Shown here: in pieces, positions 20,854 to 24,245 of the stretch | Layout of the letters: the number at the start of each line of letters is the position of its first letter | Position numbering within the stretch: the first letter of the stretch is position 1 | IMG/VR virus record: IMGVR_UViG_3300011114_000572 | Location: 1 to 35,938 of that record | Length of the DNA stretch: 35,938 bases | Source of the DNA: a virus | Direction: 5' to 3' (one strand) | Notes under the pieces: model-generated | Told to the model about the DNA's origin: nothing | The model's input: the letters and a program-made list of their open reading frames with translations, nothing else | Databases searched by the model: none | Program-made: the position numbers and the translations under genes

Positions 20854-21417
20854 ATGACAGACACAGTTTTCACTGTTCGCAAAATCGACCACAAAACCGC
20901 GAAAATGTGGGTTGAAAAATGGCACTATTCGCGGCGCATTCCGACAGGCAAAAACATAAGCTATGGCGTATTTGCCGGCGATGATTTATACGCCGTCATA
21001 GTCTACGGCATCGGCGTAAATCCGTATCAAGCCAAGTTTTTGGGCGTTGATAAGGTTTTAGAAATCAAGCGCATGTGCCGCAGCGAGCCGCCACGGCCGG
21101 AATACCCACTCAGCAAATTTATCTCCGCCACTACAAAATTGGCGAGGCGAGAATACCCGTGCGAGTGCATCGTCGCTTTTGCAGACCCAGAACAAGGCCA
21201 CGAAGGCGGCGTCTATAAAGCGAGCAATTTTACGTTGCACGGGACAACCGGCGCGGAATGGCATTTGATTGACGAGAATGGCGTGAAGCGACACAGAAGA
21301 TATGCGTTTCGGCACGCTAGGCGGCGCGGTATTTCGTTAGCCGATAGCCGCGTTGAATTAGGTGTCACACGCATTAAGACCGCGCCGAAGTACCGTTGGG
21401 TGCGGCGGTTAAAATGA
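20854..21417 (+). CDS. Mom-like DNA adenine modification enzyme (GNAT fold)
   Basis: A 187-aa protein. It matches the pattern of the phage Mu Mom family, GNAT-like enzymes that convert adenine in DNA to an N6-carbamoylmethyl-type base and protect phage DNA from host restriction. Visible signatures are EKWHYSRRIPTGKNISYGVF, LYAVIVYGIGVNPYQAKFLG, VLEIKRMCRSEPPRPEYPLS, CIVAFADPEQGHEGGVYKAS and a basic C-terminus. Start at ATG 20854; the ORF reaching 20818 would start inside the hairpin. Codon use is A/T-richer than the polymerase next to it, suggesting acquisition. It overlaps the polymerase start as ATGA. Confidence 0.85.
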   Translation: MTDTVFTVRKIDHKTAKMWVEKWHYSRRIPTGKNISYGVFAGDDLYAVIVYGIGVNPYQAKFLGVDKVLEIKRMCRSEPPRPEYPLSKFISATTKLARREYPCECIVAFADPEQGHEGGVYKASNFTLHGTTGAEWHLIDENGVKRHRRYAFRHARRRGISLADSRVELGVTRIKTAPKYRWVRRLK

Positions 21418-24245
21418 GTGTCCTTTGGTGCGATTTTGAAACTAGGTCCCGTTGCGATTTGCCGTCGCGCGGGGTCTATAATTATTGTCAAGACCCCAGC
21501 ACCGAGGTGCTGTGCATGTCCTACGCCTTCGACGACGAGGATGTGCAGACGTGGCGGCCAAGTGAGCCCTTCCCGACGCGCGTCGCGCTGCACCGGGGGC
21601 AAATCCGCACCCATAACGCCGCGTTCGAGCGGCTGATCTTCTGGTACGTGATCTGTCCTGATTTCGGCATCCCCGAGCCCAAGCTGGAGCAGTTCTACTG
21701 CACTGCAACACAGGCCCGCGCCAACTGTGCGCCGGGCAGCCTTGAGGACGTCGGCCGCTTCGCGGGTGCCAGCATGAAGAAGGACCACCGTGGCGCCGCG
21801 CTGGTGCGGGCGCTCTCGATCCCGCGCGCTGACGGGCAGTTCCAGTATAACCCTGCGCTGATGCTTGAGATGATCCAGTATTGCGAGCAGGATGTCCGGT
21901 CCATGCGCGCCGTCTCCAAGTCCATGCGCGAACTAGCCGACGAGGAACTGGCCGACTACTACGTGAACGAGCGCATCAACGACCGTGGCGTCATGCTGGA
22001 CGTGCCCTTGGCGCGCGCGGCGGTTAAGTACGCCGCGCAGGAACTGGACGACATACAGGACGTGGTGCGTGAGGTGACGGGCGGTGCGTTGACATCCGTG
22101 CGCAGCCCGCGCATGCGGGAGTGGGTGCAGGAGCGCGTCGGCCCCGAGGCCCGCAAGCTGATGCAGGTGTGGAAGGACGGCGTCGAGAAGACCAGCATCG
22201 ACAAGACCGTGCGCGCGAACCTGCTGGCAATGGAGAACCCCGATGAAGTCCCCCCGGAAGTCGCTGAGGTGGTGCAGTGCGCGGACGATCTGTGGGCATC
22301 GTCCGTGGCGAAGTTTAGCCGTGCCGCAGCGCTTAGCGATGATCAAGACGGTCGCGTCCGGGGTGCGTTTGTATTCTGTGGTGGCTCAGCTACGGGCCGA
22401 GCATCAAGCTACGGCTTACAAGTGCACAATTTCCCAAGACGATGCGCCGACGAGCCTGAACTAGTCCGCCAGGCGATGGTGCGCGGGCACCAGATCGTGC
22501 CGCAGTACGGCCGCCGCGTCACCGACGTGCTGAAGGGCATGCTGCGGCCGGCGCTGATCCCGGCACCCGGCAAGTCGTTCGTCGTCGCCGATTGGTCATC
22601 TATCGAGGCCTGCGTGACCCCGTGGTGCAGCGGTGCCGGCGATGACAAGCTGACACTTTTCCGTGATGGCGCCGACGTCTACAAGTTCAATGCTGCCGCC
22701 ACTTTCCGGTGCCGCGTCGAGGACGTCACCAAGGACCAGCGACAGGTCGGCAAGGTGCAGGAGTTGGCCTGCATAGCCGAAGACACGTTAGTATTGACGG
22801 ATAACGGATGGAAGGCTATTCAGGAGGTAACGCAACTCGACGCATTATGGGACGGTGAAGCATGGGTGACGCACCAAGGAGTAATTCCAAGAGGTGTAAA
22901 GCCGACTGTCAATGTGGCCGGCATCGCCGCAACGCCGGATCATTTGTTTCTGGTAGCGAACGAGTGGACCGAGGCGCGGTTACTCGCTTCAAGCGAACCG
23001 TTGCTTTGCCGAGCGTTGGCGACAGGTTCGGAGAACTTACCGTCGTTGGTTTTCAAATCGGTCCCGCTGGCGGGATACGAGGCGCAATTGTGCAATGCTC
23101 GTGTGGTGCCGCCCCTCACGTCGCCGCTCTTCACAACCTTAGAAATGGCGCTTCTACGCGCTGCAATACGTGTGCAAAAAAAGCTACGGGGCATTGGATC
23201 AAGAGTTATTTCCGGTACGCGGCCGTCTGTCCAGATGATGCGCATCGGCGGCGACTTCTTAATCGTTTGTCCGCCTGCAAAAACAGGTGCCACAATCCAA
23301 ACGACCGAGGATACCCAAACTACGGCGGGCGCGGTATACACTTATACGAACCGTGGCACACCGACAAAGCGGCATTTCTTGCCTACGTCATGTCGTTGGA
23401 TGGATGGGATCAACCGCGTCTGGAACTGGACCGCATCGACGTTAACAAAGGCTATGCGCCCGGCAACTTGCGGTTCATCTCAAAACGCGACAACTGCAAC
23501 AACAAACGCAGCGTCCAGCAAATGCAGCGGTACATCATCGAACTTGAGGCGCGTTTACGACATTGCACATGCGGGGCCGCGAAATCGGTTCACGGTGCTG
23601 AGTGCGCAGGGTCCGCTGATGACCCATAACTGCGGCTTTGCCGGCGGCGTGGGTGCCTTCGCGGCCATGGGCCGTGTCTACGGTTTGACCATGCCCGAGA
23701 GCGAGGCCCGCAAGATGGTGGACGCTTGGCGTCGCGCCAATCCGTGGTCGGTGCCTTACTGGCAGGAACTTGAGATTGCGTACACGCGAGCAATTCGGAA
23801 CCCGAAAACCAAGATGAAAGCGGGGCGCGTGACGTATTACTTCGACGGGCTCCACTTGTGGTACGCATTGCCGTCGGGCCGTGTACTCTGTTATCCTTTC
23901 GCTCGGATCGAGGAAGAAGGCGTCACATATGCCAAGGCGTCATGGAAGCCCGCAGCGGATGCGAAGGAGTGGCCCCGCGCCAGGTTGTGGAAGGGGCTGG
24001 CCTGCGAGAACATCACGCAAGCGACAGCCGCCGACATCCTGCGCAACGCCCTGCGAAAGCTGGACACCGTCGGTTTGGAAACGGTACTTCATTGCCATGA
24101 CGAAATTTTGCTGGAAGTAGACGCACATATGGCCGAGCACGCAAAAAAACAGTTGGCCGACATCATGTGCACTGCGCCCGTATGGGCCGACGGTTTGCCG
24201 TTGGCTGCCGAAACGTCGGTGATGGCCCGCTACGGTAAGGGTTAA
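21414..24245 (+). CDS. Family A DNA polymerase precursor with 3'-5' exonuclease and intein
   Basis: A 943-aa precursor starting at ATG 21414. The exonuclease domain shows LWCDFETRSRC (Exo I, residues 4-14), RTHNAAFERLIFW (Exo II) and QYCEQDVRSMRAVS (Exo III). The polymerase domain has motif A SFVVADWSSIEACV (about 389), the motif B region GKVQELA joined to CGFAGGVGAFAAMG, ENITQATAADILRNALRKL, and motif C LHCHDEILLEVD (about 892). Motif B is interrupted after ELA by a 287-aa intein (residues 453-739). Splicing would leave a 656-aa polymerase, a normal size for phage family A enzymes. It is coupled to the mom-like gene by ATGA. Confidence 0.92.
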   Translation: MSVLWCDFETRSRCDLPSRGVYNYCQDPSTEVLCMSYAFDDEDVQTWRPSEPFPTRVALHRGQIRTHNAAFERLIFWYVICPDFGIPEPKLEQFYCTATQARANCAPGSLEDVGRFAGASMKKDHRGAALVRALSIPRADGQFQYNPALMLEMIQYCEQDVRSMRAVSKSMRELADEELADYYVNERINDRGVMLDVPLARAAVKYAAQELDDIQDVVREVTGGALTSVRSPRMREWVQERVGPEARKLMQVWKDGVEKTSIDKTVRANLLAMENPDEVPPEVAEVVQCADDLWASSVAKFSRAAALSDDQDGRVRGAFVFCGGSATGRASSYGLQVHNFPRRCADEPELVRQAMVRGHQIVPQYGRRVTDVLKGMLRPALIPAPGKSFVVADWSSIEACVTPWCSGAGDDKLTLFRDGADVYKFNAAATFRCRVEDVTKDQRQVGKVQELACIAEDTLVLTDNGWKAIQEVTQLDALWDGEAWVTHQGVIPRGVKPTVNVAGIAATPDHLFLVANEWTEARLLASSEPLLCRALATGSENLPSLVFKSVPLAGYEAQLCNARVVPPLTSPLFTTLEMALLRAAIRVQKKLRGIGSRVISGTRPSVQMMRIGGDFLIVCPPAKTGATIQTTEDTQTTAGAVYTYTNRGTPTKRHFLPTSCRWMDGINRVWNWTASTLTKAMRPATCGSSQNATTATTNAASSKCSGTSSNLRRVYDIAHAGPRNRFTVLSAQGPLMTHNCGFAGGVGAFAAMGRVYGLTMPESEARKMVDAWRRANPWSVPYWQELEIAYTRAIRNPKTKMKAGRVTYYFDGLHLWYALPSGRVLCYPFARIEEEGVTYAKASWKPAADAKEWPRARLWKGLACENITQATAADILRNALRKLDTVGLETVLHCHDEILLEVDAHMAEHAKKQLADIMCTAPVWADGLPLAAETSVMARYGKG
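22770..23630 (+). mobile_element. Intein in DNA polymerase motif B
   Basis: A 287-residue intein. Block A begins with Cys1: CIAEDTLVLTDNGWKAIQEV. Block B is GIAATPDHLFLVANEW with the T-x-x-H signature. Block F is VYDIAHAGPRNRFTV and block G is LMTHN, followed by extein Cys (TGC 23631). Splicing joins ELA to CGFAGGVGAF. Between B and F about 190 residues of the intein frame have no sensible domain (Thr/Ala/Ser-rich low-quality sequence), because the DNA there encodes an HNH endonuclease in another frame (22862-23629). Splicing competence is inferred from the conserved terminal residues. Confidence 0.9.
22862..23629 (+). CDS. HNH homing endonuclease nested out of frame in the intein
   Basis: The ORF is shifted -1 (+2) relative to the polymerase-intein frame. 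From about residue 51 it is a recognisable endonuclease: SVGDRFGELTVVGFQIG, a zinc-ribbon-like CSC (79-81) and CNTC (101-104), then RLSACKNRCHNPNDRGYPNY, GGRGIHLYEPWHTD, LELDRIDVNKGYAPGNLRF and NCNNKR, the layout of HNH proteins that end LDRID..GY.PGN. Residues 1-50 and the last about 24 are alternate-frame readings of the intein splicing blocks. The real start is unclear: ATG 22862 has only a poor GGTGA nearby, with GTG 22964 and TTG 23006 as alternatives. Its TAA (23627-23629) lies within the codons of the intein's final His-Asn. Confidence 0.82.
   Translation: MGDAPRSNSKRCKADCQCGRHRRNAGSFVSGSERVDRGAVTRFKRTVALPSVGDRFGELTVVGFQIGPAGGIRGAIVQCSCGAAPHVAALHNLRNGASTRCNTCAKKATGHWIKSYFRYAAVCPDDAHRRRLLNRLSACKNRCHNPNDRGYPNYGGRGIHLYEPWHTDKAAFLAYVMSLDGWDQPRLELDRIDVNKGYAPGNLRFISKRDNCNNKRSVQQMQRYIIELEARLRHCTCGAAKSVHGAECAGSADDP

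Follow-up and report, generated by a model that had tools for sequence, protein, structure and literature searches.

In the textbook view, an intein and its homing endonuclease form one fused polypeptide, or a split intein surrounds a separate endonuclease gene. The window analyzed here, the whole 35,938-bp stretch of a virus record (IMGVR_UViG_3300011114_000572), contains a family A DNA polymerase gene that raises a different question: How can an intein remain in one piece while the same DNA encodes an HNH-like endonuclease in another reading frame? We conclude that this element is very probably a mobile intein with its homing endonuclease overprinted on it in the -1 frame, as a complete gene that is translated on its own. 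Judged from sequence comparison, well over two hundred phage inteins have conserved this two-in-one layout, which had escaped annotation.

The polymerase frame contains an unbroken intein

The product of the polymerase gene matches the Pfam family DNA_pol_A (E = 1.3e-17) and phrog_17 (E = 3.2e-86). The features of this frame, with the confidence of the AlphaFold model given as the predicted local distance difference test (pLDDT), are the following:

21414..24245, + strand: family A DNA polymerase gene, exteins plus intein; a single open frame from the ATG at 21414 to the stop at 24245
22770..23630, + strand: intein of 287 codons, Cys1 to His-Asn, flanked by ELA and CGFAGG; placed from motifs and an empty homologue
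22770..23045, + strand: N-terminal splicing (HINT) part, intein residues 1-92; pLDDT ~97
23049..23504, + strand: intein-frame linker, residues 94-245, a probable overprinted by-product, predicted disordered; pLDDT 30-45
23535..23630, + strand: C-terminal splicing part with blocks F and G, intein residues 256-287; pLDDT ~96

The intein begins with Cys1 at 22770 and ends with His-Asn at 23625-23630, directly before Cys+1 at 23631, and blocks A, B, F, and G are all present (TPDH in block B, VYDIAHAGPRNRF in block F, and HN in block G). MW202483, the nearest intein-free relative of the polymerase, runs uninterrupted across the insertion site (QRQVGKVQELACGFGGG, ELACGFGG). AlphaFold, which was given 54-row alignments with rows from the window and from IMG/VR or GTDB only, modeled residues 1-92 and 256-287 with confidence as a two-part HINT fold, with residues 94-245 disordered in between. 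When this model was searched with foldseek, the best structural matches were nearly all inteins and the rest HINT-type (probability 1.00, E = 0.002-0.05). The splicing residues are also conserved among related inteins that carry their HNH gene in the -1 frame, hereafter the -1 set: Cys1 and the TxxH of block B in 115/115 each, His-Asn in 113/115, and a Cys or Ser at +1 in 115/115. By its residues and its modeled fold, the polymerase frame carries an intein of the class 1 type, and splicing is predicted. It is neither a split intein nor a fractured gene, as the host frame is unbroken; the split state is seen only in relatives (e.g., L216, L358, and L133). The insertion lies within the conserved polymerase motif RQxGK...GxGG, which we take to be the O-helix, and an unspliced enzyme should therefore fail.

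An insert with an endonuclease open reading frame might also be an intron that is removed from the RNA, and group I introns with HNH genes do occur in phage polymerase genes (PMC3428280). However, an Rfam intron search of 22400-24000 found none, with only a chance miRNA match (E = 0.98), and the HINT fold and the open frame are conserved. In view of the Rfam result, a group I or II intron identity was rejected, and the chance that the insert is an intron appears negligible.

A complete HNH gene lies in the -1 frame

The same DNA, read in the -1 frame, contains a second open reading frame that begins +92 nt from the first base of the Cys1 codon:

22862..23629, + strand: HNH-like endonuclease gene, -1 frame, 255 amino acids plus TAA; assigned from PHROG matches, frame conservation, and AlphaFold
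22862..22864, + strand: proposed HNH start ATG, overlapping an intein Trp codon; placed from the stop profile, with ATG or GTG conserved here in 104/113
22849..22858, + strand: Shine-Dalgarno-like stretch GGGACGGTGA, 5' of the HNH start; duplex energy -7.4 versus -2.4 for background
23009..23566, + strand: folded core of the HNH-like protein, residues 50-235; pLDDT mostly >90
23096..23173, + strand: zinc-ribbon cysteines C79, C81, C101, and C104, invariant in 54-58 homologues
23627..23629, + strand: HNH stop TAA, cut from the intein His-Asn codons CAT AAC as CA[T AA]C

The HNH-like protein matches four PHROGs, including phrog_374 (HNH endonuclease, E = 1.7e-35) and phrog_2081 (E = 4e-23), and has the conserved pattern DR...Y.P.N.RF...N..N.R. 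In its AlphaFold model (mean pLDDT 83.8), both ends, which overprint the splicing domain, are disordered.

An earlier note on this DNA had proposed the intein at 22770-23630 with blocks A, B, F, and G, a zinc-ribbon HNH gene in the -1 frame whose stop overlaps the last His-Asn codons, and a host frame free of stop codons across the insert. All of this agrees with what we find: The motifs and the HINT model bear out the intein; the open reading frame, the PHROG matches, and the four invariant cysteines do the same for the HNH gene; its TAA indeed lies within CAT AAC; and the host frame is open from 21414 to 24245. The note had placed the HNH start at about 23012, which we correct to the ATG at 22862, ~150 nt further upstream; position ~23012 instead marks the beginning of the folded core (residue ~50). 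The gene thus appears to overprint essential splicing-domain codons as well as the linker.

The layout is widespread among phages

Scans of IMG/VR with HNH and intein profiles yielded 333 and 307 confirmed relatives, respectively, of which the best 80 of each were read, and further scans covered second inteins of the same polymerases, a third site, and GTDB genomes. Inteins were classified with hidden Markov models for the N part, the C part, and the HNH. Among the resulting 260 distinct inteins, 115 were unbroken with the HNH in the -1 frame, 121 were unbroken with the HNH in the +1 frame, 13-14 were split around the HNH, and 10 had no detected HNH, while an HNH in frame with the intein occurred in 0/260. 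Searching phage genomes by tblastn with the polymerase and with the HNH protein matched the same phages with an identical frame offset (EBPR siphovirus 2, Vibrio phage 97.13, Salmonella Ent1, Pseudomonas MR14, and Escherichia fPoEco01). In these, the intein frame was fully open and the HNH started exactly 92 nt after the first Cys1 base. Unbroken overprinted inteins include those of Salmonella Jerseyvirus, EBPR siphovirus 2, Vibrio, Pseudomonas, and APSE phages, and both frames are intact throughout the -1 loci retrieved, where the HNH starts at about +92 nt from Cys1, and in relatives down to ~30% intein identity. The inteins occupy two neighboring points in polymerase motif B, a downstream polymerase site (GGKL^CEN..QA), and further sites that, judged from the flanking residues, are in helicase genes. 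These comparisons indicate that the overprinted state is lineage-stable and widespread, in the -1 as well as the +1 frame and across several host genes and insertion sites.

The breadth of this set bears on the suspicion that the HNH is in truth fused in frame and appears displaced owing to a pair of assembly or sequencing indels. The window does contain an A7 homopolymer at ~23178-23184, a classic spot for such errors. Yet another contig (L008) aligned to 6,604 bp of the window without a gap and with 3 mismatches, so that compensating indels are absent; the window's offset recurs in the isolate genomes HE775250, MT104474, and MT711526 as well as in the EBPR and Vibrio phages; and ~236 distinct inteins combine an unbroken frame with an out-of-frame HNH. 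Given these independent genomes, the indel reading was rejected and has next to no chance of being correct.

Several individual loci extend the picture of sites and names. The two motif B insertion points, four codons apart (GKx^CELxLG in L005 and ELA^CGFGG in the window), hold related inteins, so the site was either shifted or reached twice. At the insertion point of the window's polymerase, genomes of Firmicutes and others (L270-L279) have +1 overprinted inteins, i.e., the opposite frame choice, and a query of viral contigs with the Firmicutes +1 HNH found no relatives. In the aphid-symbiont phage APSE-4, the downstream site of the DNA polymerase P45 (L360 1165-2082) is occupied by an intein overprinted in +1. 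The Ent1 record describes its intein as "encoding splicing domains" with no endonuclease, and the polymerase of Salmonella phage Ijeoma (L282 101-3199) is annotated "endonuclease," as is phrog_93, which matches the intein frame. Both latter names were apparently borrowed from the hidden gene or from the intein.

Both frames show signs of selection

The extent of the HNH gene is apparent from the distribution of stop codons across 113 inteins of the -1 set. The HNH frame contains 213 stops in intein nt 1-90, only 3 in nt 90-780, and then many again, and the unused third frame contains ~80 stops per 30-nt bin throughout. At the upstream edge of the HNH frame stands a start codon (ATG in 75, GTG in 29, and TTG in 3), and ~30 of the 113 sequences have a further ATG two codons downstream, mostly after GAGGAG. 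At the other end, the HNH stop lies within the His-Asn codons in 33/115, where the His codon is invariably CAT.

This sharp onset also bears on programmed -1 ribosomal frameshifting from the polymerase frame, which would yield a fusion of N-extein, N-intein, and HNH. The polymerase frame has an A_AAA_AAG at 23177, and -1 is the right direction. Nonetheless, the constraint on the HNH frame begins at one ATG/GTG, a slippery heptamer occurs in only 11/115 of the -1 inteins (nt 30-240) at no fixed position and is absent in most of the first six genomes, and half of the family is +1, where -1 slippage cannot work. As the window's heptamer is not conserved, programmed frameshifting was rejected, and we judge it very unlikely.

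Substitution rates by codon position, evaluated for 25 independent close pairs, show which frame is read where. Extein rates at codon positions 1/2/3 were 0.145/0.102/0.407. The middle of the -1 inteins yielded 0.090/0.356/0.132, with a peak at intein position 2, and that of the +1 inteins 0.384/0.160/0.114, with a peak at intein position 1; in each case, the peak is the wobble base of the HNH. Changes at both intein ends fell mostly on codon position 3, the intein wobble, like in the extein. In intein nt 93-237, rates were low at every position (0.083/0.111/0.153), as expected of true dual coding, and on this pattern the intein ends are dual-coding. The HNH and the intein ends are accordingly under purifying selection, with the linker free to vary except for avoiding stops. 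Since the changes in the middle sit on HNH wobble bases and always alter the intein-frame residue, the linker is best understood as an overprinted by-product, just as the earlier note had suggested.

Stop avoidance points in the same direction. Synonymous shuffling with the HNH protein held fixed produced a mean of 4.4 intein-frame stops and a median P(no stop) of 0.001 (81 dereplicated -1 cases), and the reverse shuffle with the intein protein held fixed produced a mean of 6.7 stops. In the natural sequences, no intein-frame stop was found in any -1 case, the window included. As a control, 74 loci of free-standing HNH relatives contained zero open reading frames in the other same-strand frames that spanned the complete HNH gene.

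One could argue that only the HNH frame matters and that the intein does not splice, leaving the polymerase fused or dead; the middle of the intein frame is, after all, unconstrained at the residue level. This we consider highly improbable: The splicing residues are conserved in 113-115 of 115 inteins, the intein ends show the intein-frame wobble bias, the intein frame stays free of stops throughout the -1 set, and an insertion in so conserved a motif should disable an enzyme that is not spliced.

Mobility, decay, and origin

Among the polymerases of Jerseyvirus, 151 records align over 80% or more of the query, and the others over 71% in two pieces, missing exactly the 897-nt intein. The polymerase of S119 is element-free at 95.4% identity, with the exact junction GKA^CELGLGY. 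Such presence and absence of the element in near-identical polymerases fits current mobility, and homing is predicted.

An alternative is that the dual coding is real but that the HNH no longer homes and has been kept for another use, e.g., in regulation or to exclude rival phages at the polymerase locus. The layout is old and stable in some lineages, and a stop inside the HNH core was found in 1 of ~113 -1 inteins (L133), less decay than one would expect of a purely selfish gene. Against this, the distribution among the Jerseyvirus polymerases fits a mobile element, and overprinting could itself slow decay. We regard a non-homing HNH as unlikely, if worth bearing in mind.

The exceptional L133 (5001-5843) combines an intact intein with a -1 HNH gene that a stop at intein nt 581 interrupts, i.e., a decayed endonuclease with a surviving intein. 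Inteins without a detected HNH, 369-564 nt in length, were observed in L217 (3080-3643), L220 (2210-2614), L233 (8085-8609), L261 (4010-4378), and L269 (2186-2587). Short HNH-less inteins of this kind in phage replication genes are candidates for a mini-intein state before or after HNH capture.

In the HNH trees, the -1 polymerase group is separate from a +1 polymerase/helicase group, which sits with free-standing HNH genes, and another +1 group sits with split inteins. These trees fit a small number of events in which mini-inteins captured free HNH genes, the frame being arbitrary each time. L216 (4001-4963) and L358 (2732-3704) are split copies at the downstream polymerase site. In both, the HNH gene ends on the start codon of the C-terminal half, the two sharing ATGA, an overlap that suggests translational coupling. 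In the tree of these copies, in which three outgroup rows were wrongly labeled "hel," L216 and L358 are nested among unbroken +1 copies from their own site (98/99 for the polymerase-site clade), while an approximately unbiased (AU) test did not reject a separate position for them (p = 0.35). A different kind of split polymerase intein was observed in L029 (3190-4419) and L043 (3225-4467), where a GIY-YIG-like open reading frame and no HNH lies between the halves, the class being assigned by eye.

With its mini-intein and split relatives, a route from overprinted to split inteins is plausible, its direction being statistically unproven. The earlier note had called the locus "an intermediate or new arrangement." The intact intein with an out-of-frame HNH stands, and the split relatives fit an intermediate; the arrangement is, however, not rare, and the AU result leaves the direction of change unproven. 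More tentatively, overprinting may be the normal, stable state of HNH inteins in phage polymerases and helicases, reached several times, and the usual stepping stone to split inteins with free-standing endonucleases, a proposal that we put at somewhat short of probable.

Proposed mechanism

For a mobile intein with an overprinted endonuclease gene, we envisage the following cycle. Ribosomes would read the whole polymerase-intein precursor, from which the intein and its disordered linker would be spliced out, while other ribosomes would initiate at the internal ATG and produce the free HNH protein. This protein would cut intein-free polymerase genes, and repair would copy the whole element into them. 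Historically, free-standing HNH genes most likely entered mini-inteins in whatever frame, with one or more such events each for -1 and +1. An intein would have stayed in one piece if its frame remained free of stops across the insert; otherwise, split (fractured) inteins would have resulted.

A number of points weigh against this explanation. Splicing, HNH translation, and cutting are predictions. The Shine-Dalgarno-like stretch is not specific to the HNH start, as the +1 set, where the HNH starts elsewhere, gives a duplex energy of -6.9 at the same motif; it is indistinguishable from a by-product of the intein's WDG motif, and for this reason we do not use it as evidence of initiation. A foldseek comparison of the HNH model with solved structures gave no significant match (the best was the Gme HNH nicking enzyme, E = 1.3), the HNH profile gave only chance zinc-ribbon matches to the sequences of solved structures, and a Pfam search with the HNH-like protein returned zero matches. 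The name "endonuclease" hence rests on the PHROG profiles, the zinc-ribbon cysteines, and the DR...Y.P.N.RF...N..N.R pattern. The joint probabilities from the shuffles are tiny, and too small, because shared ancestry overstates the independence of the cases. Last, the loci were retrieved by similarity to such elements, so that the census does not sample HNH-bearing inteins at random and "none in frame" describes this family rather than HNH inteins at large.

If correct, our interpretation would add a third layout of intein and endonuclease, old and common, and present in well-studied phages such as Salmonella Jerseyvirus, whose intein carries an annotation for splicing domains only. Overprinting would separate the dose of the endonuclease from that of the polymerase, and it would tie part of a selfish gene to codons that are indispensable for the host enzyme, which may slow its decay. 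It would also offer a concrete route, open to testing, by which split inteins, major tools of protein engineering, could have originated. The family may furthermore serve as a large natural set of same-strand overlapping genes in which both products have known functions, and as a warning that single-frame annotation misses such genes.

Comparison with known systems

Canonical inteins have an in-frame LAGLIDADG or HNH domain that is part of the excised intein. The element described here resembles them in its HINT splicing domain, in the placement of the endonuclease at the usual position between blocks B and F, and in its predicted homing, but differs in that the HNH occupies a separate reading frame and would be made as a separate protein. 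Fractured genes, reportedly described by Dassa et al. in 2009, have split inteins with free-standing endonucleases. They share with our element a separate endonuclease protein between intein halves, and relatives of this kind occupy two polymerase sites in the present set; yet whereas their host gene is broken in two, the host gene in the window is unbroken, with the endonuclease on top.

A 2015 paper on brucellaphages (PMC4422536) contains a one-sentence remark on an HNH, putatively encoded by an intein, that lies out of frame in the terminase, thus in another host gene, and the passages compared present no splicing motifs, evolution test, or structure for it. In the literature compared, an out-of-frame endonuclease on a genuine, unbroken intein is undescribed, and a 2025 preprint on a "non-canonical architecture" of actinophage inteins, outside this comparison, may anticipate part of it. 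Another close parallel is the ShiLan system (2025, PMC11855218), an out-of-frame HNH insert with no splicing domain that its authors conclude to be neither intein nor intron. It shares with our element the out-of-frame HNH, the stop-free host frame, the mobile pattern, and a proposed internal start. Unlike in ShiLan, the host frame in the window contains a full HINT domain, and the HNH gene overprints it.

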